This document shows, piece by piece, positions 18,985 through 33,935 of a stretch of 64,000 bases of DNA (positions are counted from its first letter, which is position 1; the number at the start of each line of letters is the position of its first letter). This stretch comes from Alphaproteobacteria bacterium (GTDB lineage Bacteria; Pseudomonadota; Alphaproteobacteria; Micavibrionales; Micavibrionaceae). The translations under genes and the position numbers were made by a program. The notes under the pieces were generated by a model. That model worked only from the letters and a program-made list of their open reading frames with translations. It was not told the origin of the DNA and ran no database searches. Location: assembly GCA_003245575.1 (NCBI GenBank), contig QKCR01000160.1:1-64000 (forward strand), given 5' to 3'.

Positions 18985-19635
18985 CTATTGACTAACCCAG
19001 ATAATTCGAGCCATCCAGATAATGTGATCCGTCGATAAAACGATATTTTCGTGGTCAGGATTTAAGGACCTGACTTCAATTTTTCCCGCAGTCTGGCGTA
19101 ATAATTCTTTGGCCATGACTTCACCCTTATTGGTTTTTATCACAATACGGTCGCCGCGACGGACTGTGCTGTCAGGAGATAAAACAAGTCTGTCTCCATG
19201 TCTGAAGAGCGGCAACATTGAATCCCCACTGACTTCAAGTGCGTAAATTTTCTGGTCGTGATGCGGCTTGGGTGATGCCGTCGGAAAATGTATGTAATCC
19301 CAGCCTTCACCAGTCGGGAATCCCGCTTCGTCGAAATATCCGTCCTTGCCGGCTTGGGCGTATCCTATAACAGGAATCCTTGGGCGCCGATCGGTTGCCG
19401 TTGACTCGTTTACCAGAAGCTCCATGAATTCCGAGATGTCTGCGCCTGTGGCTTCAAGTACGCGGGCGAGGCTTTCAGTTGAAGGCCATCTTGGCTTACC
19501 GTCAGGGCCTGTTCTTTTGCTGCGATTGAATGACGTCGGATCCAGTCCGGCTTTTTTTGCAAGACCTGATGTCGAGTATCCGCAGGTGCGGGCAAGTCGA
19601 TCGATGGCGTTCCAGATTGTTTCGTGTGTTAACAT
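18985..19635 (-). CDS. S24-type (LexA/CI-like) transcriptional repressor
   Basis: A 216-residue regulator with an N-terminal helix-turn-helix (WNAIDRLARTCGYSTSGLAKKAGLD then STESLARVLEATGADISEF) and a C-terminal S24 autoprotease domain. The catalytic serine is in VSGDSMLP and the lysine in GEVMAKELL; the cleavage site region is VIGYAQAGK. Such proteins are inactivated by RecA-stimulated self-cleavage or act as phage/SOS repressors. It is divergent from the podovirus-like element with a 108-base promoter region between, making it the prime candidate regulator of that element. It could equally be a chromosomal regulator that predates the element. Confidence 0.85.
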   Translation of the reverse strand: MLTHETIWNAIDRLARTCGYSTSGLAKKAGLDPTSFNRSKRTGPDGKPRWPSTESLARVLEATGADISEFMELLVNESTATDRRPRIPVIGYAQAGKDGYFDEAGFPTGEGWDYIHFPTASPKPHHDQKIYALEVSGDSMLPLFRHGDRLVLSPDSTVRRGDRIVIKTNKGEVMAKELLRQTAGKIEVRSLNPDHENIVLSTDHIIWMARIIWVSQ

Positions 19636-19662
19636 GATACCAGTATCTCATAAGTCTTAAAT

Positions 19663-19676
19663 CCTAGGTATAGGAA
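19663..19676. promoter_or_regulatory. Small palindrome between repressor and element
   Basis: TCCTAGGTATAGGA at 19663-19676 is an inverted repeat of five-base arms (TCCTA/TAGGA) separated by four bases, lying in the divergent promoter region of the S24 repressor. A -35-like TTGACA at 19695-19700 faces the element. It could be the operator of the S24 repressor; no second copy was noticed. Confidence 0.35.
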
Positions 19677-19726
19677 AATAATCATAAAATTTTCTTGACA
19701 AGACATGAAAACTCCGTCACAGATAA

Positions 19727-19741
19727 GAACATAAAGGGAAC
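19727..19741 (+). promoter_or_regulatory. LexA-type SOS box (GAAC-N7-GAAC)
   Basis: GAAC (19727-19730), seven bases, GAAC (19738-19741): the direct-repeat form of the alphaproteobacterial SOS box (GTTC-N7-GTTC read on the other strand). It lies just upstream of the first gene of the podovirus-like element and downstream of a TTGACA at 19695, where a bound repressor would block transcription. About two such matches are expected by chance on both strands of 64 kb, but few in a given 108-base promoter region. Confidence 0.6.
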
Positions 19742-19800
19742 AAATGTATCCGCGCCCTAGATCATCTGGTGTGGAGCATTTCTTTTGGGGTAGGAAATTC

Positions 19801-20202
19801 ATGACACGATACAAAGAAACTCACGGGGAATATACCCGCGGAGAAGCCGTTCCATTCGAGACAGCTGAGGCCGCCTGGTTCTGGTTTGTGCAGGCTCAGA
19901 CGGCGCGCAATGAAGGCGCACAGATTGTGGCGGGTGCCGGAAATTGTGTGCGTCCGTGCGAGCCTGTCGATATTTACCGCGAGTTGGATCGTCTTTACCG
20001 CGGGCGTCGATTGGTTATAGATCATATAAAGGTCTTGCGTCATTACGGGATGCGGTTGCTCTCTCCTGATCCAAGACATCCGAAGGAGGCGCGCGCATAT
20101 ACAATCTGGATCGAAGCTTTGGATAGGTTGGGCGATGCACTAAAATCCAAAGGAATCGTTGCTGAAGTCTCTTATTGGGATGGGGCTGCTCATGGAGGGT
20201 GA
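19801..20202 (+). CDS. Conserved-looking protein of unknown function, first gene of element
   Basis: A 133-residue soluble protein I cannot name. It is rich in charged and aromatic residues, with an AWFWFVQAQ segment, two close cysteines (NCVRPCEP) and the helical stretch YRELDRLYRGRRLVIDHIKVL. The ATG at 19801 follows GGTAGGA; an in-frame ATG at 19744 is possible but sits directly on the SOS box and its extra 19 residues look non-coding. It overlaps the next gene by 11 bases. Possible roles include regulation of the late genes; this is speculation. Confidence 0.65.
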   Translation: MTRYKETHGEYTRGEAVPFETAEAAWFWFVQAQTARNEGAQIVAGAGNCVRPCEPVDIYRELDRLYRGRRLVIDHIKVLRHYGMRLLSPDPRHPKEARAYTIWIEALDRLGDALKSKGIVAEVSYWDGAAHGG

Positions 20203-20560
20203 TTGCGCATTGGTGGTCTTTAGCGGACAGACGGATGTGTGGTGGCTCAAATTTTTAAGACGTGAGTTCAGACATTGTTTTGTTTTTGTCAGAATGGGGG
20301 AACGTTGGGTTGCGATTGATCCAATGTTGCATCATTGGGACGTATCCTTACCCGACATAGAGACATCATTTGATTTGAAGGCTTGGCTGGAAGATCAGGG
20401 ATATAGAGTGATTGAGACAAAAATTCTTATTCCTGAGAGGCGGTATTTTCCGCCTCTTTTTTTGTCCTGTGTCGAGGTGGTGAAGCGGATTATAGGGCTT
20501 CAGAAGCCATATATCCTAACGCCTTACCAGCTTTATCGTTATTTGAAGTTTCAACATTAA
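20192..20560 (+). CDS. Possible permuted NlpC/P60-like cysteine peptidase
   Basis: A 122-residue protein with a histidine in a strand-like context early (FRHCFVFVRMGERWVAIDP) and a cysteine later (FLSCVEVVKRIIG) followed by LTPYQLYRYL. The His-before-Cys order and the helix following the Cys resemble circularly permuted papain-like peptidases (YebB/YiiX class). I infer this from pattern only. In a phage element such an enzyme could act on peptidoglycan. The start could also be the ATG at 20180. Confidence 0.5.
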   Translation: MEGDCALVVFSGQTDVWWLKFLRREFRHCFVFVRMGERWVAIDPMLHHWDVSLPDIETSFDLKAWLEDQGYRVIETKILIPERRYFPPLFLSCVEVVKRIIGLQKPYILTPYQLYRYLKFQH

Positions 20561-20571
20561 AGGAGATTTGA

Positions 20572-20835
20572 ATGGGAGCATTTTCTTCCAAGCCCAAGGC
20601 GCCAAAATCATCGCCGACGGTTGTTTATTATGTGCCTAAAACTACAAGCGAAACATCTACTACGACAGATACATCATCCAGTGTTGAGGCTGATCCGGCA
20701 GAAGTTGCCGCAACGCGGGTCGAGAATGTTTTACGCCGTAAGCGCAGCATTGTCGGAAATGTTTTGACATCTTTGCGCGGCGTTCTTGAAAACGGGTCGG
20801 GTAATGTCGCTCGTAAAACACTTTTGGGGGAATAG
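20572..20835 (+). CDS. Small phage head-region protein upstream of portal
   Basis: An 87-residue protein with a disordered Ser/Thr/Pro-rich N-terminal half and a basic C-terminal helix ending ARKTLLGE. Small proteins with a basic stretch and a TLLG-type tail just before the portal occur in many T7-like phages of proteobacteria. Ribosome site AAAGGAG. It ends directly against the portal start (no gap). Function unknown. Confidence 0.7.
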   Translation: MGAFSSKPKAPKSSPTVVYYVPKTTSETSTTTDTSSSVEADPAEVAATRVENVLRRKRSIVGNVLTSLRGVLENGSGNVARKTLLGE

Positions 20836-22176
20836 ATGGTGGAGGATACACAAACGGGCGTTGAACAAATTCATGAAGGAATGATTGGGGCGGTTGCTGC
20901 ACGGTTTGATCGAGCAAAGACGATTCGGTCAAACTGGAGTAGTTTATGGCAAGATTGTTATGATTATGCTTTGCCGAACAGAAGTCAGAGTTCTTTAAGT
21001 CGTGGACGCGCAGATCATCTTTATGATGCAACGGCGCTTGATGCGGTCGATGAACTTGCCTCGATGCTTTTGGGTTATTTAACGCCGCCTATGACCCCGT
21101 GGTTTGCAATTAAGGCCGGTACGGATGTCACGGATGAGGATGCGCAGAAGCTAGCGCCACTTCTTGATCAGGCTACGCGTGTTCTACAGGCGCATTTTGA
21201 CCAGTCGAATTTTCTAGTCGAAATACATCAGTGCTTTCTAGATTTGGTTGTCTCTGGCACGGCGTCTCTTGCTTTTGAAGAAAGTGAGCCGGGAGACTTA
21301 TCCGCGTTCCGGTTTGCGGCTCTTCCGATGTCGGAGATCAGTTTTCTTGAGGGACGAAACGGTTATCTTGATGTTGTGTTTCGTGAATTGTCTTTGAGTT
21401 CTGTGCGTATTCGAGAACGCTATGGATATATAGAGACAGATATATCGACAGATCAGGCGTTTGAGGTGATAGAGTGCATCTTGCCGATGCAGGATGGAGC
21501 CGGATATTTTTTCATTGCTTACTTAAAGGATAGTTTGGATGTCATATCTGTTCAGAAGGTTTCTGAGTCTCCATACATAAATTTCAGATGGATGAAATCT
21601 CCGGGCGAGGTTTATGGGCGTTCTCCTGTGATGAAGGCTCTTCCTGATATTAAGACGGCCAATAAAGTTGTTGAGTTAATCTTAAAGAATGCGTCGATTG
21701 CGGTCACAGGAATTTGGCAGGCGGATGATGACGGGGTGATAAATCCTGCGACTATTCAATTGGTTCCCGGGGCAATTATTCCAAAGGCTGTTGGGTCTAA
21801 GGGGCTAACGCCTCTAGAGATGCCATCGCGTTTTGATGTGTCCCAATTGGTTCTGGAAGATTTGCGTGCACGCATCCGTCATGCGTTGTTGGTTGACCGT
21901 CTGCCTGCTGTGGGGGGAGGAAAGATGACCGCAACCGAGATCACTGAGCGGACTGGTCAGATTGCCTTGTTGCTTGGCGCGACGTTTGGTCGATTACAGG
22001 TCGAATTATTGAACCCGTTGTTACAGCGCGCGTATCAGATATTGCGGGATCGCGGATCAGTTCCCGATTTGCCGTTAGACGGGCGTACATTGGCAATTGA
22101 ATATCGCTCACCATTGGCGCGTGCGCAATCCATATCCAGACACTTATCGGATGGCTCGGCATGGCACAATCTTTAG
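20836..22176 (+). CDS. Portal (head-tail connector) protein, C-terminus frameshifted
   Basis: T7 gp8-type portal, the dodecameric ring through which DNA enters the capsid. Family features: RAKTIRSNWSSLWQDCYDYA, YDATALDAVDELASMLLGYL, LTPPMTPWFAIKAG and the late TATEITERTGQIALLLG with LAIEYRSPLARAQ. The frame ends at residue 446, whereas relatives are ~500-550 aa. The missing end (GNAVLDYFARTLGVPA) is encoded in the -1 frame from about 22125 to 22316, so a single-base deletion (or a non-obvious frameshift) has split the gene. I saw no slippery heptamer. Confidence 0.85.
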   Translation: MVEDTQTGVEQIHEGMIGAVAARFDRAKTIRSNWSSLWQDCYDYALPNRSQSSLSRGRADHLYDATALDAVDELASMLLGYLTPPMTPWFAIKAGTDVTDEDAQKLAPLLDQATRVLQAHFDQSNFLVEIHQCFLDLVVSGTASLAFEESEPGDLSAFRFAALPMSEISFLEGRNGYLDVVFRELSLSSVRIRERYGYIETDISTDQAFEVIECILPMQDGAGYFFIAYLKDSLDVISVQKVSESPYINFRWMKSPGEVYGRSPVMKALPDIKTANKVVELILKNASIAVTGIWQADDDGVINPATIQLVPGAIIPKAVGSKGLTPLEMPSRFDVSQLVLEDLRARIRHALLVDRLPAVGGGKMTATEITERTGQIALLLGATFGRLQVELLNPLLQRAYQILRDRGSVPDLPLDGRTLAIEYRSPLARAQSISRHLSDGSAWHNL

Positions 22177-22316
22177 GGAAAGATGCATCTGCTCGCGTGA
22201 ACGGGAATGCGGTTCTTGACTATTTTGCACGGACTTTGGGAGTTCCTGCCGTGTTCTTAAATCAATCATTACCACTTAATCAGATATCTCAAGAAGGAGA
22301 GACAAAACATGACTGA
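22161..22316 (+). pseudogene. Detached C-terminal fragment of portal gene
   Basis: In the -1 frame relative to the portal, ATG at 22161 opens 51 codons (MAQSLGKDASARVNGNAVLD, then YFARTLGVPAVFLNQ) that look like the C-terminal end of T7-type portals. The same frame is open back to about 22122, so a -1 shift there would give a ~495-residue portal. The ATG lies 13 bases before the portal's stop codon, so re-initiation could make it as a separate peptide. Its stop overlaps the scaffold start. Confidence 0.65.
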
Positions 22317-23043
22317 GACATATTTGGATGCAAAAATTGAAGATCAAACTGCTCTTGTAGAAGGTCTGCCGGAAGGTGTTCCTGTCAAATTCTGGGATGC
22401 CGAGAAAAAAGAGATCAAGGTTGATGCTTTGATGAAATCGTATAAGGAGTTGGAGAAAAAACTTTCCCGTATGATGCCTATTCCTGAAAGCGATGCGGAT
22501 AGGGTGCGTCTTCATAAGATGTTGGGTTGTCCTGATACGCCTGAGGGATATGAAGTGACGCTGAGCAATGAGTTTTTGGATGTTGATCCTGAGCTGAATG
22601 CGCGCCTCCATGGGAAAGGGTTTACGAGCGCGCAGGTGCAGGAAGTTTATGATCTGGCTGGTGAGAGATTGGTGCCGTTAATTTTGGAAATGGCAGCTGA
22701 GTTTCAAGCAGAGCGCGAGATTGAGCGTTTGGTCGAGGCTTTTGGCGGTGTGACCAAGTGGCAGGAAATTTCCCGTCAGTTACAAGAATATGGGCGCAAG
22801 GTTTTGCCTGCTCCTGCTTTAGAAGGAATGGCGTGCTCTTATGACGGGGTGATGGCGCTTTACCGCATGATGCAAAAGGACGGCAAGATCCCATCGGCTC
22901 GTGCAGATGGAGAAGTGGGGGATGTGTCAGATGAGAAGTCATTGCGCAAGATGATGCAAGATCCACGTTACTGGCGTGATCGTAATCCGGCCTTTATTGC
23001 GAAGGTCAGTGCCGGATTTGAAAAGCTTTACAGTGGGCGATAA
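22309..23043 (+). CDS. Capsid assembly scaffolding protein
   Basis: T7 gp9-like scaffold (244 aa): acidic, helical, located between portal and capsid. The N-terminus has VPVKFWDAEKKEIKVDALMKS, a pattern typical of phage scaffolds of this class (FWD...G.iR.DAL.KSY.ELE), followed by a long helical middle and a charged C-terminus ending AGFEKLYSGR that would contact the coat. Ribosome site AAGGAGAG. It acts inside the procapsid and leaves upon maturation. Confidence 0.85.
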   Translation: MTETYLDAKIEDQTALVEGLPEGVPVKFWDAEKKEIKVDALMKSYKELEKKLSRMMPIPESDADRVRLHKMLGCPDTPEGYEVTLSNEFLDVDPELNARLHGKGFTSAQVQEVYDLAGERLVPLILEMAAEFQAEREIERLVEAFGGVTKWQEISRQLQEYGRKVLPAPALEGMACSYDGVMALYRMMQKDGKIPSARADGEVGDVSDEKSLRKMMQDPRYWRDRNPAFIAKVSAGFEKLYSGR

Positions 23044-23044
23044 A

Positions 23045-23443
23045 TTACGCTTGTGAGCCTGCGAATTCGCGCGCGTTAAAGTCGTCGATCACATTTTGGA
23101 ATGTTTTGCGAATGTCTTGTGTGAGCGGCTCGAATTGTAGGGAGTAGCTCTCGGACATTTTGCGGACAACAGTTGCCGTGTGCTTGATTTGAATCAGGCT
23201 TTCACGCAAATGGAATTTCATTTCGACTTCCATCTGGTCGCCAAGTGCGATCGGGCGTGGGTCGCCGAATACTTTGACGCCACCTGGACTCCAGTCAAGG
23301 ATCGGATGGGCTTTGCCGTTGATGAACCCGATACATTGGTCGCATGTACGACGCGGATGTGAGCGGCGAGACGAAAATCCATCGCCGCCATCGGAAGAAT
23401 ATGATTTTTTAAAACTGAGTGCTGACATAATGGTTTGCAGCAT
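23045..23443 (-). CDS. PilZ-domain (c-di-GMP-binding) protein inserted in capsid module
   Basis: A 132-residue single PilZ domain: the arginine motif RRSHPRRTCDQ, then DWSPGGVKVFG for the (D/N)xSxxG motif, and a beta-barrel rich in charged strands. PilZ proteins bind cyclic di-GMP and switch motility, adhesion or envelope functions. The start is the ATG at 23443, with GAGGT eight bases upstream; the open frame extends further but lacks similarity. It is antisense between scaffold and capsid, two bases from the scaffold stop, where no phage morphogenesis gene is expected: a moron-like insertion. Confidence 0.88.
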   Translation of the reverse strand: MLQTIMSALSFKKSYSSDGGDGFSSRRSHPRRTCDQCIGFINGKAHPILDWSPGGVKVFGDPRPIALGDQMEVEMKFHLRESLIQIKHTATVVRKMSESYSLQFEPLTQDIRKTFQNVIDDFNAREFAGSQA

Positions 23444-23748
23444 ACTTATGACCTCGTGTTCGTCCAGTGTAAATTTACATTCATAAACAAGTACCGAACA
23501 CCGAAATTTTTGCGTCACGTATTGGTTGCACTTTACGTAACGACCGACCGCTAATAATATAGGGTGTTTATTATAAATAATCAAGTTTTTCGTGAGGCCA
23601 GAATGTCGCAATTTTAGCCTGACGACGCGGATAACAGGCCGTTCGCTTTGCCCGCAATTTTCCTGCTTTTGGATGCGCCGTTTGTACGATAACCACCAAA
23701 AGTCCCCATTATTTAACATAATATTACAATTCTCAAAAGGAGAAGTCT
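23444..23748. promoter_or_regulatory. Divergent PilZ/capsid intergenic region
   Basis: 305 bases between the PilZ gene and the major capsid gene. A perfect 12-bp palindrome TGTAAATTTACA lies at 23468-23479, 25 bases upstream of the PilZ ATG, a plausible operator. The arms CGTCACGTA and TACGTAACG near 23512-23541 form a second imperfect inverted repeat. AAAAGGAG precedes the capsid ATG. I could not place promoters firmly. Confidence 0.4.
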
Positions 23749-24579
23749 ATGAGCACTGAACTTCCTCAGGCGTTCGTGAAGCAATTCGAGCGCGAAGTCC
23801 ACGAAGCCTACCAACGACAAGGGTCAAAACTGCGTGGTGCAGTCCGTGTCATTAATAACGTTAAAGGGTCGTCTGTTGTCTTCCAGAAAGTCGGAAAAGG
23901 CACTGCATCCACCAAATCTACTCACGGGATGGTGCCTGTGATGAATCTTTCCCATAGTTCTATCGAGTGTGCGCTCGAGGATTATTATGCCGGTGATTGG
24001 GTTGATAAGCTGGACGAACTTAAAATTAATCATGATGAGCGTCATGTTATTGCCAATGCCGGTGCCTATGCGCTGGGACGTAAAACAGATGATCTGATTA
24101 TTACTGCCCTGTCCGGTGGGAGCTCATTAAGCGTCTCCGATGACAATATCGGTTTGACTCGTGATAAAGTCCTTGAGGCCTTCGAGTTGCTTGGTGAAAA
24201 TGACATTCCCGATGATGGTGGTCGTTTTGCCGTCATCGGTTGGAAGCAATGGTCTGAGCTTTTGAAAATTCAGGAATTTGCATCTAGTGAATTTGTCGGC
24301 CCTGATGAGCTGCCGTACAAAGGAACTCAAGCCAAAAAATGGCTCGGGACAACCTGGATTCCGCATTCAGGATTGCCGATTGATGGGAATGATATTCGCT
24401 CCTGCTTCTGGTTCCACAGAACAGCAATCGGCCATGCATCCGGTTCTGATGTTCAGACTGATATTTCATGGCATGGAGATCGCGCTGCGCACTTCGTCAA
24501 TAATATGATGTCCCAAGGAGCCGCTTTGATTGATGAGAGCGGAGTGGTCACTATCAATTGTGATGAGACCCCTGACTAG
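23749..24579 (+). CDS. Major capsid protein
   Basis: Coat protein of the T7-like HK97-fold class (276 aa). Visible traits: QAFVKQFEREVHEAYQRQGS at the start, the NNVKGSSVVFQKVGKGTAS E-loop-like segment, YYAGDWVDKLDELKINHDER, and FVGPDELPYKG in the A-domain. Strong ribosome site AAAAGGAG and a downstream hairpin indicate high expression. No host-related oddities; the frame is intact. Confidence 0.88.
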   Translation: MSTELPQAFVKQFEREVHEAYQRQGSKLRGAVRVINNVKGSSVVFQKVGKGTASTKSTHGMVPVMNLSHSSIECALEDYYAGDWVDKLDELKINHDERHVIANAGAYALGRKTDDLIITALSGGSSLSVSDDNIGLTRDKVLEAFELLGENDIPDDGGRFAVIGWKQWSELLKIQEFASSEFVGPDELPYKGTQAKKWLGTTWIPHSGLPIDGNDIRSCFWFHRTAIGHASGSDVQTDISWHGDRAAHFVNNMMSQGAALIDESGVVTINCDETPD

Positions 24580-24604
24580 ACTAATTCTTTGATCTTTGGA
24601 CTGC

Positions 24605-24682
24605 AAAACCGATGATTCTGCGCTTCCGGTGCTCACGTACTTTTATGTACGCTGCGCTCCGGTTCTCGGATCATCGGCTTTT
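24605..24682. repeat. Long hairpin repeat after capsid gene
   Basis: Outer arms AAAACCGATGAT (24605-24616) and ATCATCGGCTTTT (24670-24682), inner core CGTAC-TTTTAT-GTACG. It is related in design to the hairpins at 11373-11458 and 34568-34647 and lies 26 bases after the capsid stop, where it may stabilise the capsid mRNA or reduce read-through. Confidence 0.6.
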
Positions 24683-24745
24683 CGTCTCAAATCTCTTCGA
24701 ATTTATATCCCTTTTTCATTTTTATATTTTTATAGGAGTTCCTAG

Positions 24746-24988
24746 ATGGCTTTCGAAAGCAAAGACCTGAGTGTGTTGGCCTATGCCAATAATTTTACGC
24801 TCTGGCATTACACCACCACTGATTCAAGCGTCACTGGGGCAGGATATTTCAATTCTGCTGCAACCATGTTGCGCGTCAATGATCTGATTATTGTCAATAT
24901 CGATACAGACGGCACACCATCCACGGTGTTTTATATTGTGACAGTGAACACAGGTTCTGTTGTCACTGTGGCAGCCTTTACTGCCTGA
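24746..24988 (+). CDS. Small head protein (putative decoration/fiber)
   Basis: An 80-residue all-beta-looking protein beginning MAFESKDLSVLAYANNFTLW and containing GYFNSAATMLRVNDLIIVN. Similar small proteins follow the capsid gene in phages of alphaproteobacteria and are thought to decorate the head; the assignment is from pattern memory and position. Ribosome site TAGGAG. It ends before the hairpin at 25037-25066. Confidence 0.6.
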   Translation: MAFESKDLSVLAYANNFTLWHYTTTDSSVTGAGYFNSAATMLRVNDLIIVNIDTDGTPSTVFYIVTVNTGSVVTVAAFTA

Positions 24989-25036
24989 TTTCCTGCCTTT
25001 GGTCAGGCCGCATGCCACCTGATCTGTATCGTCTCT

Positions 25037-25066
25037 GATGACCGGAGGATTTCCCCTCCGGTCATC
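25037..25066 (+). terminator. Strong hairpin between head and tail genes
   Basis: GATGACCGGAGG (25037-25048) and CCTCCGGTCATC (25055-25066) form a perfect 12-bp stem with a six-base loop, followed by a T-rich stretch (25067-25085). It sits between head and tail genes, the position of the T7 late terminator, and likely lowers tail-gene expression relative to capsid. Confidence 0.65.
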
Positions 25067-25096
25067 TTCCCTTTAAATTTTCTTTTATGAGGTTTT

Positions 25097-25669
25097 ATGA
25101 TGGCTTTGACCGATACGGGGCTTTGTTCCCGCGCGCTGGTCCGATTGGGTGTGCACCCGATCACGTCTTTTTCTGACGGAACTGCTGCGTCCGAAATTGC
25201 AGGTTTGATTTATGAACCTGCACGGGATGCCGTATTGTCGTCTTATGCTTGGAGTTTTGCGACGGGACAAGTTGCTTTGACTCAATTGGGGAGTGGCCCA
25301 AATGCCGATTATGCCTATGCCTATCAATTGCCGAATGATTTCTTGCGGGCGATTTCTGCGGGTACGGGAACACGCGGGCGCGGTATTGCTTATCGTATAG
25401 TCGGAGACCAGCTTCATACGAATGCGGATCAGGTTATGCTGACCTATATTTACCGCCCTGCTGAGGAAACTTTTCCGCCGTTCTTTGATATGGTTTTGAT
25501 TGCGCGGTTGGCATCGGAGTTTTGTTTACCCTTAACCGAAAATGTGTCGCGTGCCGAAATGTTAGCGCGTTTGGCCGAGAGCGAATTTCAGCGCGCGCGG
25601 CAATTGGATGCACAGCAGGATACGCCCAACAGGCTTGAAAGCTTTGCGTTGATTGATGCACGGGAGTAG
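25097..25669 (+). CDS. Tail tubular protein A (T7 gp11-like)
   Basis: Adaptor ring between portal and nozzle (190 aa; T7 gp11 is 196). Signature: LCSRALVRLGVHPITSF, EIAGLIYEPARDAVLSSYAW, then YAYAYQLPNDFLRAIS. These match the tail-tube A family. The start may be ATG 25097 or 25100. Three bases separate its stop from tail tube B, as in phage tail operons. Confidence 0.9.
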   Translation: MMALTDTGLCSRALVRLGVHPITSFSDGTAASEIAGLIYEPARDAVLSSYAWSFATGQVALTQLGSGPNADYAYAYQLPNDFLRAISAGTGTRGRGIAYRIVGDQLHTNADQVMLTYIYRPAEETFPPFFDMVLIARLASEFCLPLTENVSRAEMLARLAESEFQRARQLDAQQDTPNRLESFALIDARE

Positions 25670-25672
25670 GAC

Positions 25673-27574
25673 ATGGCACGGACAACACAAATTAAAACAA
25701 CATTTACGGCCGGAGAAGTGTCTTCTGATCTTTTGGGGCGCGGAGATTTGCGTGCCTATGAGAATGGGGCTTTGAAACTCAGAAATGTTTTTATTCAACC
25801 GACAGGCGGGGTAAAGCGCCGCTCGGGATTGCGTTACCTCGATCAGGTTGCCGGTATGGGGCGATTGATTGCGTTTGAATTTAATACTGAACAGACTTAT
25901 TTGTTGGTGGTGACGGATCTGCAAACTGCGATCTATGCTGACGGGGTCTTGCAGACAACACTGTCGACCCCATGGGAAGAAGCGGATATTGCAAATCTTG
26001 CCTGGACTCAAAGTGCGGATACGTTGTTGTTGGTGCATCCTGATTATTCCCCGAAGAAGATTACACGCTCTGGGCTTGGTGTTTGGAGTGTTGTTGATTG
26101 GGAATTTTATGAAACGGATTTGGGTCGCAAAACTCAGCCGATGTATAAATTTGCGGAAGCTGTGGTTACGATTACACCCAGTGCTACGACGGGGTCTATC
26201 AGTTTGACGGCATCTGCGGCTGTCTTCGAGACAGGGCATGAGAATACACGTCTTCGGGTGGGGGACAGGGAAGTCCTTATTACGCTTGTCAATTCGCCGA
26301 CTGTGGTGACGGCAACGGTGATTGAGACTTTGGTGTCTGCGTCCCCAACAGTGGATTGGGAAGAGCAGGCTTTTTCAGTCGTGCGCGGGTATCCGCATAC
26401 GGTGGCTTTCCATCAGGATCGTTTGGTGATCGGTGGGTCGAGGGATTTGCCGAACAGGTTGTGGTTTTCGCAGTCGGGTGATCTCTTTAATTTCGATTTG
26501 GGAACGGGGCTTGATGCAGAGGCGATTGAGTTCGGAATTTTCTCGGATCAGGTGAATGCTATTCGCGGGATATTTTCAGGTCGTCATTTGCAGGTTTTTA
26601 CCAGCGGGGCGGAATGGATGGTGACGGGTGATCCGCTGACGCCTTCGACAGTGCAGATCAAACGCCAGACGCGCGTCGGGTCGATGGTGTCGCGTTATAT
26701 TGCGCCGCTTGATGTTGATGGCGCGACTTTATTTGTTGCGCGTAATGGGCAAGAGCTTAGAGAGTTTGTGTATACGGATGTTGAGGCTGCGTATCAGTCC
26801 ACGGATTTGGCGCTTCTTTCCAAGCATATCATCACGACGCCTGTCGATCAGGATTTTGATCAACGGCGCAGATTGTTGTTTCTGGTGCGTGAGGACGGCA
26901 AGTTTGCCACATTGACTGTTTATCGTGCGGAGGCTGTGGCGGCGTGGACGCTTCATGAGACGCAAGGGGCGGTTAAGTCTGTTTCGGTTGCGGGGGATGA
27001 TGTTTATTTTCTGATTGATCGCGGTGGAGCGTATTATATCGAAGTGATTGATGATGCGCTGTCTCTTGATTCTGCTCTGACGGGGGAAGCTATAACGCCT
27101 ACAGAGACATGGAGTGGGTTGAGTCATTTGAATGGTCGAGCAGTATCTGTTGTGGCGAATGGGCGCGTACAAGATGATGCGGCTGTTTCTGCGGGAGAGA
27201 TTATTCTGGTTCAGGCGTTTTCTGATGTTCAGGTCGGACTGTCTTATACGCATATCATTGAGCCTTTACCGCCCGCCAATGTGTCCGGTGTCGGGTCTGC
27301 GCGGGCTGTGAGGCTTACCGAGCTTGTATTTCGTTTGAGTGCAACTTCTGCTTTACAGGTGGATGTGGGGCGAGGGTTGCAGGACGTGTCGTTGCGCCAA
27401 TTGGGAGAGGACGAGATATTAGATGCGCCTTTGCCTGCAGTGTCAGGGGATATTCGCGTTGGGGCGTTCGGATGGGTTTATGATCTGGCACAGCCTTTAT
27501 GGCGCGTAGAACAATCTCTGCCGCTGCCCTTTGCTTTGTTGTCCGTTCAGACAGACATTGTTGCCAATTCGTGA
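25673..27574 (+). CDS. Tail tubular protein B / nozzle (T7 gp12-like)
   Basis: Nozzle protein of the short tail (633 aa; T7 gp12 is 794). The N-terminus has FTAGEVSSDLLGRGDLRAYE and NGALKLRNVFIQPTGGVKRR, diagnostic of the podovirus nozzle family; the middle has GYPHTVAFHQDRLVIGGSR and DQVNAIRGIFSGRHLQVFT. The frame is intact along its length. Confidence 0.88.
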   Translation: MARTTQIKTTFTAGEVSSDLLGRGDLRAYENGALKLRNVFIQPTGGVKRRSGLRYLDQVAGMGRLIAFEFNTEQTYLLVVTDLQTAIYADGVLQTTLSTPWEEADIANLAWTQSADTLLLVHPDYSPKKITRSGLGVWSVVDWEFYETDLGRKTQPMYKFAEAVVTITPSATTGSISLTASAAVFETGHENTRLRVGDREVLITLVNSPTVVTATVIETLVSASPTVDWEEQAFSVVRGYPHTVAFHQDRLVIGGSRDLPNRLWFSQSGDLFNFDLGTGLDAEAIEFGIFSDQVNAIRGIFSGRHLQVFTSGAEWMVTGDPLTPSTVQIKRQTRVGSMVSRYIAPLDVDGATLFVARNGQELREFVYTDVEAAYQSTDLALLSKHIITTPVDQDFDQRRRLLFLVREDGKFATLTVYRAEAVAAWTLHETQGAVKSVSVAGDDVYFLIDRGGAYYIEVIDDALSLDSALTGEAITPTETWSGLSHLNGRAVSVVANGRVQDDAAVSAGEIILVQAFSDVQVGLSYTHIIEPLPPANVSGVGSARAVRLTELVFRLSATSALQVDVGRGLQDVSLRQLGEDEILDAPLPAVSGDIRVGAFGWVYDLAQPLWRVEQSLPLPFALLSVQTDIVANS

Positions 27575-27595
27575 TTTTTTAAAAAGGAGAGAGAG

Positions 27596-28060
27596 ATGGG
27601 GAGTTTTGCCTCGGCGTTGACACCGATCATGCAGATCGGGTCAGCGATAAGTAGTGTTGCGAGTTTTTCAAAACCGTATGTTGCTCAAAGCCAATCAAAT
27701 GCGCAGGCTGATCTGGAGTTACAGCAGTTGGAACAGCGCACGGCGCAACAAAAGAAACAAAATTTATTGGAGTATCAGCAAGCAGAAACTGCGCGGCGAT
27801 CCAAATTGCAGAAACTATTATCGACACAGCGTGCAGAGTTTGGCGGCAGCGGAGTTGGAAGTGGAACCGGATCAGGTGAGGCTGTTTTAACAGGATTAAC
27901 AGCAGATTCCGATGTCGAGCGGCAGTTTAATACAAAAGAGTATCAATTAGATAATCAAGCATTGGATTTACGCGTCGCGCAGCAACGCCAGTTGAATTTG
28001 CTGCAAAAGCAGCAGCTCAAGAACAAGACGTTGCTGAATTCTTTGACTGATATTTTCTAA
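27596..28060 (+). CDS. Internal virion protein, gp14-like
   Basis: A 154-residue protein with a hydrophobic N-terminal part (ALTPIMQIGSAISSVASF), a long Gln-rich coiled coil (residues ~35-75), a Gly/Ser hinge (FGGSGVGSGTGSGEAVL) and a second Gln-rich helix. This resembles T7-type internal virion protein gp14, which is ejected into the outer membrane. The large partners gp15 and gp16 are not present nearby. Confidence 0.65.
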   Translation: MGSFASALTPIMQIGSAISSVASFSKPYVAQSQSNAQADLELQQLEQRTAQQKKQNLLEYQQAETARRSKLQKLLSTQRAEFGGSGVGSGTGSGEAVLTGLTADSDVERQFNTKEYQLDNQALDLRVAQQRQLNLLQKQQLKNKTLLNSLTDIF

Positions 28061-28083
28061 TTCAGTTTATTCGAGGAGAAGTT

Positions 28084-30108
28084 ATGACCGAGCATATTAA
28101 AATGCCCGATGTGGTGCCTGTTGTTCGTTATCTGGCGAACGGCGTACAGACCAGTTTCGAGTTTCCGTTTCCTATATTTGCCAGTGAGGATTTGCGCGTT
28201 TCGTTTGACGGCGCGCTCCAGATCTCAGGGTTTATGATTAACGGGGCAGGCGCGAGTTCCGGCGGGAATGTGATATTTGATGTTGCGCCGTTAAACGGAA
28301 TTGTTGTCACTCTGGAACGGCGTATGGCGTTTGAACGTTTGACAGACTTTATTGAAGGCGGGGATTTTGCGGCGTCTGCGATTAATTCCGAGCTGGATTA
28401 TCTGGTGGCAGGATTGCAGCAAGTGGCACGTGACCAGATTCCGATGCTTAAATTCAATGACGGGGAAGAGCCGTCAGTCACTTCTCTTCCTGCGCGGAAT
28501 GTGCGTGCGGGAAAGGCCCTCGGATTTGACGCAAGCGGCGACCCTGTGGCTCTGTCTTTGGACGGGGCGATGGCTTCCCCTGATTTTACAGCCGTCGGGA
28601 GCGGGGCCGTGACGCGTACCAGCACAGATAAGCTCAAGGATGTCGTTTCTGTTAAAGACTTCGGGGCGGTAGGTGATGGTTTAACCGATGATACGCTGGC
28701 TTTCCAACAGGCTCTGGCGGCCCATGCGGCGGTGTTTGTCCCCACAGGTGTTTATATTGTCAGTGGGACGATTGCCTTGGGACAAGGACAGAGTTTGATT
28801 GGGGTGGGGGATTCTTCCGAAATTCAAATGGCGTCCACTTCTCTTCCCTTAATACAGTTTACAGGGAGTTATGCTTTACTCAAAAATTTGAAGCTCTTTG
28901 GCGGAGGGGTCGGGATCAAGTTTTTGGGTATTGGTGGGCCGTGTGTTCAGAATGCCGTGGTTGATGTATCGACTTGGCAGGCGCAAACGGGGATTTTGCT
29001 TGATGGCGGGAGTGACGGGTTAAAGCCGACTTACTGGAATAATTTTACGCGCGTTTTGGTGGCGCAGCCTTTTGTAAACGGGATTCATATGATGCGCTCA
29101 GGTGCGGGGGATACGCCCAATGCGAACCGCTTTGTGCAGTGTCGCGTCTATTCTCTGGGGGCGGCGACATCAGGCGCAGGCGTTTATATCGAAGAAGGAT
29201 CGTTTAATAACAGCTTTACCGATTTGGAAGTGAATGTAAACGGTATGAGCGCACAGGCCTGTGTGCGGTGTGGATATGGGTCGAACAAGACTTTGTTTGT
29301 TAATCTCTATACCGAGTCGAGTAATTCTGTTCCCAATGTGAAGTTAGATGCAGGGTCGATTGAGACTGCGATTTATAATTTGCTTTCGGCCAGTGACGGG
29401 GCCGCAATTTGGGATTTGTCGGGCGGCGAATATACGGCGTTTAATGCAGGGTATCCGCACAAAAACCGTATGCAGCGCTCGATTTGTACAGATATGACAG
29501 CAACGATGATGCGTTATGATACCGAATATATTGATGCGAGTGGGTCAGTGACACTTGATCTCTCGCATTCCGTGCATTTGGTATCGTCTTATGGAGGTGC
29601 TTTGATTGTGGAGCTTCCGAACGCTGCTGAGGCGGTCGGATGTATGATGGTCGTCAAAAAGATTGATAGTTCCAAGAATATTATCACCGTGACAGAGGAT
29701 GCAGGCTCAGGGCCTGATAACAGGTCTTATTATCTAGGGGGCGAGAATGATTTTGTTGCCATGATGTCCAACGGAGCCGAGTGGTTTGTGATGTCATCGA
29801 ACCGTGCGCCGGGGAATACGCGTTTTTATGACGGGAGCGGGACATATGATATTGATATGGCAGTGGATGTCTATTTGCTCTCAAGTTTCGGAGGAGCACT
29901 GACTGCGCGGCTTCCACCTGCTAATGCGCCCGAAGCTGTGGGGCGGCAAATCACGATCAAGAAAACAGATGTGTCGTCTAATGTCGTAACTGTTTCAGAA
30001 TTCGGGGGTGCAGGTCCTGACGGATATAGTCAACCGCTCGCGTCGCAGTACAAATCGATTACGGTCGTGTCGGATGGCGGGCAGTGGTACATCCTATCAA
30101 AATTCTAG
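28084..30108 (+). CDS. Tail spike with T7-type anchor and pectate-lyase-like helix
   Basis: A 674-residue receptor-binding protein. Residues ~1-120 match the T7 tail-fibre N-terminal anchor (YLANGVQTSFEFPFPIF ... ERRMAFERLTDFIEGG). Residues ~180-215 hold the start of a right-handed beta helix (VVSVKDFGAVGDGLTDDTLA), typical of polysaccharide-degrading spikes. The C-terminus has two tandem repeats of about 80-85 residues, each with V-LLSSFGGAL-like and VVSDGGQWYILS-like segments. It probably binds or cleaves a surface glycan. It ends at 30108. Confidence 0.82.
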   Translation: MTEHIKMPDVVPVVRYLANGVQTSFEFPFPIFASEDLRVSFDGALQISGFMINGAGASSGGNVIFDVAPLNGIVVTLERRMAFERLTDFIEGGDFAASAINSELDYLVAGLQQVARDQIPMLKFNDGEEPSVTSLPARNVRAGKALGFDASGDPVALSLDGAMASPDFTAVGSGAVTRTSTDKLKDVVSVKDFGAVGDGLTDDTLAFQQALAAHAAVFVPTGVYIVSGTIALGQGQSLIGVGDSSEIQMASTSLPLIQFTGSYALLKNLKLFGGGVGIKFLGIGGPCVQNAVVDVSTWQAQTGILLDGGSDGLKPTYWNNFTRVLVAQPFVNGIHMMRSGAGDTPNANRFVQCRVYSLGAATSGAGVYIEEGSFNNSFTDLEVNVNGMSAQACVRCGYGSNKTLFVNLYTESSNSVPNVKLDAGSIETAIYNLLSASDGAAIWDLSGGEYTAFNAGYPHKNRMQRSICTDMTATMMRYDTEYIDASGSVTLDLSHSVHLVSSYGGALIVELPNAAEAVGCMMVVKKIDSSKNIITVTEDAGSGPDNRSYYLGGENDFVAMMSNGAEWFVMSSNRAPGNTRFYDGSGTYDIDMAVDVYLLSSFGGALTARLPPANAPEAVGRQITIKKTDVSSNVVTVSEFGGAGPDGYSQPLASQYKSITVVSDGGQWYILSKF

Positions 30109-30188
30109 CTGTTATTCTGGGCTTTTGGGCTGCAAATAATGCGAATGGGTTAGTAGCCTTTAGGCTGCACAAAAAGAGGGAGTTTTCT

Positions 30189-30482
30189 TTGGAAATAAAA
30201 TTATTGGTAGATATTGTGCGCGATCAGGTTGCAGCATTCCTGCCTGATGCGTTGACCAAGACGTTGGCGTCTTATCATGAGTACATGAAGGCGGATATTT
30301 CGGCCGAGAATTTTGCCGAGATGCATAAGAATGCCAAAGTTGCGATTTCTCATGTCGAGTTGCTTATCAAGCTTGCCAAATGGGTGGACGGAGCAACTCC
30401 TAAGGGGGATATGCCCCTGATTCCGGAGGAAATTCTTATGATGGCGGAAGAAGATATTGCCGCGTTTCGCGGAGAAGGATAA
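30189..30482 (+). CDS. Small helical protein, candidate small terminase subunit
   Basis: A 97-residue mainly helical protein between spike and large terminase, the place of T7 gp18 (89 aa). I chose the TTG at 30189, six bases after GAGGGAG; an open frame from a GTG at 30084 overlaps the spike. Sequence is not recognisably TerS, so the assignment rests on size, position and helical character (IVRDQVAAFLPDALTKTL, HVELLIKLAKWVDG). Confidence 0.5.
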   Translation: MEIKLLVDIVRDQVAAFLPDALTKTLASYHEYMKADISAENFAEMHKNAKVAISHVELLIKLAKWVDGATPKGDMPLIPEEILMMAEEDIAAFRGEG

Positions 30483-30485
30483 ATA

Positions 30486-30517
30486 TTGACATAACTCCAC
30501 ATGTTTCTATATATAAT
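30486..30517 (+). promoter_or_regulatory. Sigma70-type promoter for metallopeptidase
   Basis: TTGACA (30486-30491), 18 bases, TATATA (30510-30515), with TATAAT in register at 30512-30517. The expected start of transcription (~30522) falls on an in-frame ATG, so the message may be leaderless. Together with the terminator at 31608 this makes the metallopeptidase a separate unit. Confidence 0.55.
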
Positions 30518-30521
30518 GCGG

Positions 30522-31580
30522 ATGAAATTACTCGAGCCCTCTTCGAACATACCGTATTTGTTGCCTCCGCATCAGGTGGGACAAATGCTGGATAATTTCC
30601 CGTTCGGAAGTCGCTTTCCGCAGATGATAGATTTAATTCTTTCCTTCCACAGGGCCGGCGGACGGTATGGAGTTGGATATAGCGAGAAGGGCGTTGTTGC
30701 TGATTATGTTCCGGGAAAAGAACCTCTTGTTCGTTACTACTCTCAGCCAACGGCTAGCGTAACTATTCATGAACTAGCTCATCATCGCCAGGCAATACGT
30801 TTACCGGAATTATGGCGACAACATGGTAGTATGCACCCTGTCGTGGGGATGTGGATTGAAGCAGATGCGCGGGTGCATGAGGCTTTGCACGCGCTTGAAG
30901 TGATTGAGTATCTTAAGGCGACAGATCAAAGTACGAGCATGGTGTTTCGGGATATGGATTATTTCGAGGATTTATCCCGTTTGGAAACTCTGTGTGAGGG
31001 GACCTTAAAAGATTTAGAGGACATTGCTACAACACGTGGTCCTATTCCACATAAAGATCGGTTAGAATTTTTAAGGGATGTCTTTGATAGTTTCGTCGAT
31101 GGATTCACAAAAGATCAGGAAAGGAACATAGGATATATCTCTATTTTCTCTGAATCGATGGCTACTTATAATGCAAATGTTGATGCTTCGGCGCGTCGCT
31201 ATTTGCGTTCCAGTGTGTCGTGGGTTGCTCTGACGGCTGCTATGTCGCCTCTACCTGCTGCTGTTATTCCGGCACTGATCGCCGGAATGGATGTTTATAG
31301 GCAAAAGCAATTTATTGAATGTGCCGATGCATTTTATAATCCACCGTCTGCTGATTATGCCGTAGATAAGCTTTCAACACTTGGTCGTCTTCCCTGCCGT
31401 TACGGCAATTATTTGACGGATGTTGACGGTGAATCTTTGGGATCAGAGTTCTATCGATCGGTTTGCCCGGAAATGGATAGGGTTATCGAGTTGTTTCGTG
31501 AAGATTTGCAGTCACGTAAATTGACGCAAATTCCTAAAAATCTTTACAAAAGATTGATGCCCTCTATGTCGTCTCCGTAG
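30522..31580 (+). CDS. Putative zinc metallopeptidase (HExxH), cargo gene
   Basis: A 352-residue protein with the zinc motif HELAHHRQA and, ~45 residues on, acidic residues that could complete the site (GMWIEADARVHEALHALEVIEYL). It resembles putative metallopeptidases of the DUF6782 type, assigned by eye. A weakly hydrophobic stretch (WVALTAAMSPLPAAVIPALIAG) lies near residue 240. No signal peptide. ATGs at 30501 and 30516 are in frame but lie within the promoter. It sits between candidate TerS and TerL yet has its own promoter and terminator. A toxin, effector or anti-phage factor is possible. Confidence 0.65.
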   Translation: MKLLEPSSNIPYLLPPHQVGQMLDNFPFGSRFPQMIDLILSFHRAGGRYGVGYSEKGVVADYVPGKEPLVRYYSQPTASVTIHELAHHRQAIRLPELWRQHGSMHPVVGMWIEADARVHEALHALEVIEYLKATDQSTSMVFRDMDYFEDLSRLETLCEGTLKDLEDIATTRGPIPHKDRLEFLRDVFDSFVDGFTKDQERNIGYISIFSESMATYNANVDASARRYLRSSVSWVALTAAMSPLPAAVIPALIAGMDVYRQKQFIECADAFYNPPSADYAVDKLSTLGRLPCRYGNYLTDVDGESLGSEFYRSVCPEMDRVIELFREDLQSRKLTQIPKNLYKRLMPSMSSP

Positions 31581-31605
31581 TAGTCATAAATTTTATCGGT
31601 TTTCA

Positions 31606-31639
31606 CCCCGCTTGTTGCGGGGTTTTTGTTTGCTTTTTT
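31606..31639 (+). terminator. Terminator after metallopeptidase
   Basis: CCCGC (31608-31612), loop TTGTT, GCGGG (31618-31622), then T-rich TTTTTGTTTGCTTTTTT to 31639. It ends 13 bases before the GTG start of the large terminase and separates the metallopeptidase from the packaging genes. Confidence 0.65.
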
Positions 31640-31651
31640 CAGGAGTTCAAT

Positions 31652-33139
31652 GTGCCGCCATGTTCGTTTCCGTTTTTCGTCGCCACATGGAACAGATTAC
31701 AAAACCAGATGACTCCGCGTGTCCATTTTGTCATCGCCGATTTTCTGGAGCGGAGTTGGGTGACAGGTCAGAGGCGCTTGCTGTTGATGGCTTTTCGGGC
31801 GTGCGGAAAATCGACCTTGGTGGGTTTGTTTTGCGTCTGGCTTTTGCTGAAGTCGCCTGATGTGCGTATATTGGTGCTCTCGGCTGATCTGGCGTTGGCA
31901 AAAAAGATGGTCAGGAACGTCAAGCGAATTTTAGAGCAGCATCCTTTGACAACACATCTCAGGCCCGAAAGTGCAGATCAATGGGGGGCTGACCGATTTA
32001 CAATCAAGCGCGCGAAGGAATTACGTGATCCGTCGATGCTGGCCAAAGGGATTGTCAGTAACCTCACAGGAACCCGCGCGGATGTGATTATTTGTGACGA
32101 TGTGGAAGTTCCCAAAACCAGCAATAGCTTCTCCAAGCGCGAGAATTTACGCGAGCGCCTATTAGAGTTGGATTATATCTTAACGCCTGACGGGACACAG
32201 CTATATGTCGGGACACCGCATTGTTACCATTCAATTTACGCGGATGAGGTGCGTAGCGAGTTTGGCGAGCGGCAGATTTTTTTGGACGGGTTCGAGCGTC
32301 TGGTGATGCCGATATTAAATACTTCGGGTGAGAGTGTCTGGCCTGAGCGGTTTTCTCAAGAGCGGATTGAGGCAATCAGGCTGCGCACAGGACCTGCGCA
32401 TTTCAACAGCCAGATGATGTGTGAGCCGACGCGGATCGAGCAGGGGTATTTCACGGCAGATAGTCTGCATCTTTATGATGATGAGTTGATTTACCGCGAA
32501 GCGGGCGGGCAAGCGGTTTTATCGTTGGGAGGGCGCCGCATGGTGTCTGCTTCCGTGTGGTGGGACCCAGCCTTTGGGTCAGAACGCGGGGACAGGAGTA
32601 TTCTGGCGATTGTTTATAGTGATGAAGACGGGGATTATTTTGTTCATCGTGTTCTGCCGTTGACGATTTCAAAAACATCGTCTTTGGATGAGGCCACCCA
32701 GCAATGCCGTCAGGTGATTGATGCGATCACGGCTTACTACATTCCGTGTGTACGTCTCGAGATTAACGGATTGGGTAAGTTTTTGCCCAATGTGTTGCGC
32801 CGTGAATTGGGATTGGCGGGCGTTTCTTGTGCAGTTGAAGAGATGGTTTCTAAAGACCCGAAAGGGGAGCGTATCCTCAGAGCTTTTGATGCGCCTTTGG
32901 CGGCGCGTGCCGTTCATATCCATCGGTCAGTCTTGAAAACGCCTTTTGTCCGCGAGTTGGAGGAGTGGCGTCCGGACGACGCACGCGGCGGGCATGGCGG
33001 GCATGATGATTGTCTGGATGCCGTGGCCGGAGCCATTGCCCATGCCGGTGTTCGAATTAAGAGACTTTTTGTGCGCGGAGGGCGTGCTTCATGGCAAGGC
33101 CGCGGGGCGCATCATGCGCCCCATGATTTTGATGTTTAG
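31652..33139 (+). CDS. Large terminase subunit (TerL)
   Basis: DNA-packaging motor-nuclease of the T7 gp19 type (495 aa). ATPase: Walker A-like MAFRACGKSTLVG, Walker B DVIICDDVEVP, coupling region YVGTPHCYHSIY. Nuclease: first acidic residue in VWWDPAFGSERGDRSILAIV, and a C-terminal HDDCLDAVAG acidic cluster. The GTG at 31652 follows CAGGAG. All motifs are intact, so packaging function is conceivable. Confidence 0.92.
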   Translation: MPPCSFPFFVATWNRLQNQMTPRVHFVIADFLERSWVTGQRRLLLMAFRACGKSTLVGLFCVWLLLKSPDVRILVLSADLALAKKMVRNVKRILEQHPLTTHLRPESADQWGADRFTIKRAKELRDPSMLAKGIVSNLTGTRADVIICDDVEVPKTSNSFSKRENLRERLLELDYILTPDGTQLYVGTPHCYHSIYADEVRSEFGERQIFLDGFERLVMPILNTSGESVWPERFSQERIEAIRLRTGPAHFNSQMMCEPTRIEQGYFTADSLHLYDDELIYREAGGQAVLSLGGRRMVSASVWWDPAFGSERGDRSILAIVYSDEDGDYFVHRVLPLTISKTSSLDEATQQCRQVIDAITAYYIPCVRLEINGLGKFLPNVLRRELGLAGVSCAVEEMVSKDPKGERILRAFDAPLAARAVHIHRSVLKTPFVRELEEWRPDDARGGHGGHDDCLDAVAGAIAHAGVRIKRLFVRGGRASWQGRGAHHAPHDFDV

Positions 33140-33148
33140 GAGACAAGA

Positions 33149-33439
33149 ATGCCTGATTCAATTTTACAAACTTTAGGATGGTGGATCGCCGTTATTGAAT
33201 TGCCGGTTGTTTCTGCCTTGTTCCGCATGATGTGGACATCACGTCGTGATCTGGAAGAGGCCGTGCAAATTCTGCGTGATGATCTGGCAGACCATAAGGT
33301 CGATGTGGCGCGCACTTATGCTCAGACCAAAGATTTGCGATTGCTGGAAAATCGCCTGACAGCACATTTGTTACGCATCGAAGCCAAGCTGGATGCGACT
33401 GCTCTTAAAGCCGAACAAAACTCATTTACGAGAGGATAA
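33149..33439 (+). CDS. Small membrane protein with coiled coil, Rz/spanin-like
   Basis: A 96-residue protein with an N-terminal hydrophobic segment (WWIAVIELPVVSALFRMMW) followed by a charged coiled coil (DLEEAVQILRDDLADHKVDV and onward). In the lysis cassette this topology is typical of an inner-membrane spanin or a holin accessory protein. No outer spanin gene is obvious nearby. It is nine bases after TerL. Confidence 0.6.
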   Translation: MPDSILQTLGWWIAVIELPVVSALFRMMWTSRRDLEEAVQILRDDLADHKVDVARTYAQTKDLRLLENRLTAHLLRIEAKLDATALKAEQNSFTRG

Positions 33440-33443
33440 AATC

Positions 33444-33935
33444 ATGGATAAACCGAAATTAGTAGCGTTGCCTTCCAAAAAAGCGGGGGCAACGGAAGCT
33501 TTGTTGCAAGATGCTCAGCGTGAAATGGAAGCTGATATTTTGGCCCGCACCTTGTGGGGGGAGGCGCGCGGCGAGGGTAAAACAGGCATGGAGGCCGTTG
33601 CTATGGTTATTTTGAACCGTGTTGAAATTGCACGAAAAGCAGGCGGGTTCTGGTGGGGGAATTCGGTGATCGAAGTGTGTCGCAAGCCGTATCAGTTTTC
33701 CTGTTGGAACAAGGATGATCCGAACATGTCCAAATTATTGAGTGTCGGGGAAGATAATCCGTATTTTGTGACGGCTTTGCGCGTTGCGCGTCGGGCGTTG
33801 CTCGGGTTTTTAAAGGACCAGACCAAAGGGGCAACACATTATCATGCGCGAAATGTACAGCCCTATTGGGCCAAAGGTCAACGCGCTGTTGCGGTGATCG
33901 GGCGTCATATTTTCTATCGTTTGGCGGGGGATTAG
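33444..33935 (+). CDS. Cell wall hydrolase, SleB-like endolysin
   Basis: Peptidoglycan hydrolase of the SleB/Hydrolase_2 family (163 aa). The catalytic region is ARTLWGEARGEGKTGMEAVA with the key glutamate in GEARGEG, followed by MVILNRVEIARK, KPYQFSCWN and the C-terminal ATHYHARNVQPYWAKG. ATG at 33444 follows AGAGGA; the upstream open frame overlaps the previous gene. It has no signal peptide, so it needs the holin for access to the wall. Confidence 0.85.
   Translation: MDKPKLVALPSKKAGATEALLQDAQREMEADILARTLWGEARGEGKTGMEAVAMVILNRVEIARKAGGFWWGNSVIEVCRKPYQFSCWNKDDPNMSKLLSVGEDNPYFVTALRVARRALLGFLKDQTKGATHYHARNVQPYWAKGQRAVAVIGRHIFYRLAGD

Follow-up and report, generated by a model that had tools for sequence, protein, structure and literature searches.

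Gene transfer agents (GTAs) of the RcGTA type are siphovirus head-tail clusters. To our knowledge, the known alphaproteobacterial GTAs are all of this long-tailed kind, and their tie to the SOS response is only indirect, except for a LexA site predicted in D. shibae. SOS control of phage genes is otherwise ordinary and, in the case of the CTX phage, the host LexA and the phage repressor RstR exert control jointly. Alphaproteobacterial LexA sites fall into GTTC and GAAC consensus groups, and those of the D. shibae GTA cluster were predicted in silico (PMC6473078). In Caulobacter, RogA is a LexA-like protein that combines an HTH and an S24 domain and is devoid of the key cleavage residues (PMC9632790), while the GIL01 phage is repressed directly by the host LexA, acting on a phage promoter (PMC4551915). 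Finally, FpGTA of Faecalibacterium prausnitzii was proposed in 2026 as a podovirus-like GTA-like element and called the first of its kind, packaging of host DNA being shown by sequencing the encapsidated DNA (PMC12946183).

Here, we analysed a phage-like locus of a Micavibrionaceae bacterium, located in a stretch of 64,000 nucleotides (hereafter the window), together with its counterparts in related genomes. Our reading, which we hold with good confidence, is that LexA and a repressor of the element together hold a domesticated podovirus-type particle operon, which would be released by DNA damage.

The main ORFs of positions 18985-34490, scanned with Pfam and/or PHROGs, form a T7/pelagiphage-like structural, packaging and lysis cluster of about 15.5 kb. 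The first gene (19801-20202, defined by homologue alignment within a longest ORF that opens at 19744) encodes an orphan helical protein of 133 aa (AlphaFold pLDDT 82), whose family is present in 105 of 142 genomes from the order. Searches by sequence against Pfam, PHROG and PDB matched no family and Foldseek gave nothing significant, so that it was rejected as a known activator; a fold search of this helical protein returned one weak VIA match, to an ECF sigma factor (Z 5.0, 71 residues), and we retain it as a candidate activator. It is followed by a second 133-aa gene (20159-20560), supported by alignment, with an invariant His39 and Cys104 and no convincing Pfam match, by an 87-aa gene whose position is conserved in relatives (20572-20835), by the portal or head-tail connector (20836-22176; PF12236, E 1e-114), and by the scaffold, a T7 capsid assembly protein (22309-23043; PF05396, E 1e-9). 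In the window, the C-terminal ~50 aa of the portal are out of frame, with a switch around 22131-22185 (region 22131-22308); same-genus relatives have an uninterrupted, longer portal, and the switch is either a real mutation or an assembly error.

Beyond the scaffold, the cluster comprises the major capsid protein (23749-24579; PF19821, E 2e-81), an 80-aa gene whose place behind the capsid gene is conserved (24746-24988; PHROG 18004, match in 57 of 81 loci), the tail tubular A-like (25097-25669; PHROG 394) and B-like (25673-27574; PHROG 376, E 2e-143) proteins, a weakly matched T7 gp14-like internal virion protein (27596-28060; PF24072, E 0.0014, PHROG 418), a pectate-lyase-like tail spike (28084-30108; PF12708, PHROG 1640), a conserved 132-aa gene with matches in relatives' loci (30084-30482), the terminase large subunit TerL (31652-33139; PHROG 38, E 3e-80), a 96-aa gene (33149-33439; PHROG 29007), a cell wall hydrolase annotated as endolysin (33393-33935; PF07486, E 8e-21) and a GTA_holin_3TM holin (33936-34490; PF11351, E 3e-9). 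Between the 132-aa gene and terL, the window also carries a 359-aa gene with a metalloprotease-like HELAHH motif (30501-31580), present only in the window copy among the relatives fetched. PilZ domains bind c-di-GMP, and a PilZ-domain gene lies on the opposite strand inside the cluster (23045-23719, - strand; PF07238, E 1e-7). It has a tblastn match in 66 of 81 loci, with 33-78% identity between the window copy and those of relatives, and no match in cluster copies outside the family.

No integrase, polymerase or replication genes were found in the cluster when these main ORFs were scanned with Pfam and/or PHROGs. Lacking integrase and replication genes, the cluster differs from a temperate phage, and it would probably produce a short-tailed particle loaded with host DNA. 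The same gene set could instead encode a PBSX-like killing device or a capsid-based weapon, with SOS control unchanged. SOS control and lysis genes are compatible with both uses, and the predatory Micavibrio is probably among the hosts; however, the complete capsid, portal and terminase favour DNA delivery, without being decisive. We regard a weapon as a somewhat unlikely outcome.

We then turn to the control region. The initial annotation had placed an SOS box, a GAAC-N7-GAAC direct repeat, at the front of this element, and GAACATAAAGGGAAC is indeed read at 19727-19741 on the + strand. Its estimates of chance occurrence are borne out as well: about two copies were anticipated per 64 kb, for a calculated value of 1.93, and the 94 start positions possible in the 108-bp gap (19636-19743) give 1.93/64000 x 94, in line with the ~0.3% stated. 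The distance of 32 nt from TTGACA to the box holds from start to start, but the gap itself measures 26 nt. The box was also said to lie directly before the first gene. It does precede it, but probably not directly: the ATG at 19744 is unlikely to open the gene, since its homologues start at the equivalent of 19801, a conserved start codon whose context is very similar in the relative G067. With this start, the box lies some 60 nt ahead of the first gene and spans the predicted transcription start, downstream of a -35 element TTGACA (19695-19700, + strand) and, after a 17-nt spacer, of a -10 element CACAGA (19718-19723, + strand; family consensus CATAAA) placed by promoter alignment.

Taken by itself, the match is weak evidence, because the window contains 4 exact copies of the motif against 1.93 expected, and it is the position that carries weight. 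The three other copies, at 11343, 17876 and 22242, are all on the - strand and lie within or at the tail of coding DNA. Likewise, a pattern search of the genome found no enrichment of the motif, with 55 exact occurrences against 92 for the reversed control, so that only intergenic position and conservation can be relied upon. Both counts speak for a chance match, but this explanation is refuted by the conservation of the box across orthologous promoters, where an exact copy is observed in 76 of 88 cases in the family, and its probability is negligible. In these 88 promoters, 12 of which have no exact box, the box usually starts 31-32 bp after the start of TTGAC. Among the regions that could be counted automatically, 54 of 63 contain an exact box, against ~0.2 expected by chance, and TTGAC is located 31-33 nt upstream of it in 53 of these 54. 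Across the family, the promoter reads TAGGA-N6-TCCTA, TTGAC, 17 nt, CATAAA, 3 nt and GAACATAAAGGGAAC, an arrangement that is the same in Azospirillum. The spacer between the -35 and -10 elements is not conserved in the promoter alignment, unlike the letters of the box, of which the 8 GAAC/GAAC positions are invariant through the choice of exact boxes.

The identity of the motif is supported by the SOS genes of the same genome (2.3 Mb in 160 contigs), which encodes one LexA and one clear RecA, both genes being uninterrupted. The initial annotation had suggested looking for the same box at lexA, recA and uvrA. The outcome is mixed: recA carries the exact box GAACGAAAATAGAAC, 101 nt before its start, lexA carries an imperfect one, GAACAAATCGAGAAT, with a 7/8 match, and uvrA has none within 500 bp upstream. 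In relatives, an exact box is observed in 25 of 38 recA and 32 of 42 lexA upstream regions, with GAACTAAAGTAGAAC as the typical form. We examined 56 exact-box entries in the genome, 8 of which were classed as intergenic, and scored boxes with a matrix built from the recA and lexA boxes of relatives; the best two intergenic boxes are those of recA (20.7 bits) and of the element (16.6 bits). The proposed LexA motif is thus upheld, since the form of the element box matches the recA and lexA boxes both in this genome and throughout the family. Elsewhere in the genome, a LexA-like box, GAACTAATACAGAAC, is found at locus L017 (G000, contig C47:8496-8510), 14 nt upstream of an ORF that resembles Cas5 by eye.

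Divergently from the operon lies a gene (18985-19635, - strand) for a CI/LexA-like repressor made of an XRE HTH and a Peptidase_S24 domain (PF00717, E 9e-22; PHROG 4 repressor). It had been described as an S24 self-cleaving regulator, a prediction with which its residues are in accord: the catalytic Ser139 and Lys176 and the cleavage pair Ala95-Gly96 are all present. Orthologous HTH genes are found in 92 of the 104 family genomes, once in each except G093. The promoter alignment shows a second conserved block, TAGGA-N6-TCCTA, which is a candidate operator for this XRE repressor and is represented in the window by the palindrome AGGAAAATAATCAT (19672-19685). Most of the promoters devoid of an exact box in G016, G012, G008, G011, G007 and G049 carry an additional palindrome-like copy that overlaps the -10 element, and box and palindrome therefore look like separate, exchangeable operators.

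This layout raises the question of whether the GAAC repeat is itself the operator of the element's XRE repressor rather than that of LexA. In favour of this, the divergent repressor gene has the box in its control region, and the N7 of the box is more conserved than at recA and lexA. By contrast, the same GAAC-N7-GAAC motif is present at recA and lexA family-wide, and the genomes in which the HTH gene is absent or displaced dissociate the two sites. Neither G031 nor G058 has an HTH gene anywhere, and the palindrome is missing from both; G031 nevertheless keeps the exact box, and G058 a 7/8 match. In G013, G014 and G033, the HTH gene moved elsewhere, and both box and palindrome are retained. 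These genomes separate the palindrome, attributable to the XRE repressor, from the GAAC box, attributable to LexA, making an XRE operator at the box quite improbable. We therefore keep LexA as the predicted ligand of the box. Its N7 reads ATAAAGG with less variation than a preference for A would by itself explain, and a short motif located after the box (AANTGTRTC, box +15 to +24) is partly conserved in relatives, where it sometimes gives GAAC-N6-GTTC. These two features suggest that the site may also serve something besides LexA. A leader peptide or ribosome site was rejected as the cause of this conservation, the codons after the box forming no open frame in relatives.

We sorted the 70 loci with an identifiable repressor by sequence motifs rather than structures. 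An S24 domain with both Ser and Lys motifs is found in 23 loci including the window (exact box in 20), S24 with Ser and an unclear Lys in 2 (exact box in 2), an S24-like domain without the catalytic Ser in 18 (exact box in 16), short HTH frames in 5 (exact box in 5), and in-frame HTH-PyrE fusions from which the S24 domain is gone in 22 loci from several genera (exact box in 19). Hence, 40 of the 70 loci have lost the catalytic Ser or the whole S24 domain, and 35 of these keep the exact GAAC box, suggesting that many lineages kept the LexA site but probably no longer receive a damage signal through self-cleavage of this repressor. In the fusion genomes, PyrE (orotate phosphoribosyltransferase) was found only in the fused frame, as a single match per genome, except for two in G093. 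The latter has two element copies (L206 and L210), each beside an HTH-PyrE gene, one with an exact box in its promoter and the other with a 7/8 match. The palindrome operator is kept in the fusion loci, of which L249 (G070), L244 (G023) and L210 (G093) are examples. With Pfam, the phosphoribosyltransferase domain of the fusions is just below the cutoff and their HTH is weak, the HTH call being based mainly on identity to the family HTH.

Since all its genes are phage-like, the element could be an ordinary SOS-inducible prophage, now defective and retained by chance; the frame switch in the portal of the window would fit such decay, and S24 repressors and LexA boxes are frequent in prophages. 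Its distribution argues otherwise. Of the 104 Micavibrionaceae genomes, 90 encode the portal, nearly all of them in a single copy, and 34 of the 39 genera are represented; outside the family, the cluster is also seen in Azospirillum, Defluviicoccus, Ferrovibrio, Arboricoccus and other genomes. Gene order is conserved among the loci of relatives, and the neighbourhood is fixed in most genera, consisting of purC-nadK-pyrE with a DUF1476-like gene and a glutaredoxin gene (names given by sequence reading); the cluster adjoins nadK (NAD kinase) in 53 genomes. The genus of the window has it at another chromosomal site, between a rarA-degP-like block and nhaA. Protein distances track those of RecA (r 0.57 for the portal, 0.75 for the capsid and 0.60 for tail tube B, compared to 0.61 for the host nadK), and dN/dS, calculated for all but the last four genes, amounts to about 0.02-0.17 in comparisons with unsaturated synonymous sites. 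Moreover, the nearest named phage, EXVC031P Hodr, is only 36% identical in the portal and 47% in the capsid. The cluster is thus vertically inherited, essentially single copy and under purifying selection, and chance retention of a defective prophage is improbable. Taken together, these data suggest a GTA-like cluster rather than an ordinary or young prophage.

From these elements, we infer how the locus might work, from repressor binding to induction, particle formation and packaging of host DNA. The box would be a LexA operator placed over the start of the promoter TTGACA-N17-CACAGA, which would drive the podovirus-type particle operon. In an undamaged cell, this promoter would be shut by LexA at the GAAC box and by the XRE/S24 repressor at TAGGA-N6-TCCTA. 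Upon DNA damage, active RecA would promote self-cleavage of LexA and, in the genome of the window, the S24 repressor would probably cleave itself too, allowing transcription of the operon in the order small orphan protein, portal, scaffold, capsid, short tail, spike, terminase, endolysin and holin. The likely product would be a short-tailed particle with host DNA, freed by lysis, which could be either a GTA or a particle like PBSX. A broader version of this reading, to which we give an even chance, is that the cluster is an ancient podovirus-type GTA of the Micavibrionaceae and also of Rhodospirillales, switched by damage through LexA, and that the host has rewired the cluster's second repressor on repeated occasions, in some cases by fusing the HTH to PyrE. 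If true, an HTH fused to the only PyrE of the cell would tie particle production to pyrimidine status, and the series of cleavable S24, non-cleavable S24 and HTH-PyrE forms would show, as is rarely seen in nature, how a phage repressor comes to be absorbed into host metabolism. A controlled element of this type would be more interesting than the initial annotation supposed. With a LexA operator on its operon, a short-tailed cluster shared across the family would represent a separate domestication event whose trigger can be tested directly, and would raise the question of whether damaged cells make particles from which their kin could draw templates for repair, as has been proposed for Caulobacter. 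A non-exhaustive literature search found neither this alphaproteobacterial cluster nor the HTH-PyrE fusion described.

Finally, we compared the locus with known systems. As in the alphaproteobacterial SOS regulon (GTTC-N7-GTTC / GAAC-N7-GAAC), the same box is present at recA and lexA of Micavibrionaceae, which possess a lexA gene; here, however, it also sits on a particle operon, and its N7 is unusually fixed. GIL01 and CTX are real phages, whereas this cluster is inherited family-wide. The nearest named phages for portal and/or capsid, the Pelagibacter podoviruses EXVC031P Hodr, HTVC024P and HTVC010P, are full phages of 34-39 kb. FpGTA, to which the element is likened by description, belongs to another phylum and is organised in two operons, and the host of Brachyspira VSH-1/BhGTA is unrelated. 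Many of the relatives' repressors miss cleavage residues as Caulobacter RogA does, a likeness again drawn by description. RcGTA, DsGTA and CcGTA, of the Rhodogtaviriformidae type, are likewise inherited structural clusters without replication genes and with a GTA_holin_3TM gene. The portal (PF12236), the capsid (PF19821) and the T7-type tail tubes described here nonetheless set the cluster apart from the RcGTA families and place it outside Rhodogtaviriformidae: its portal, capsid and tail tubes are of the short-tailed T7/pelagiphage type, and its predicted LexA box lies directly on the operon.
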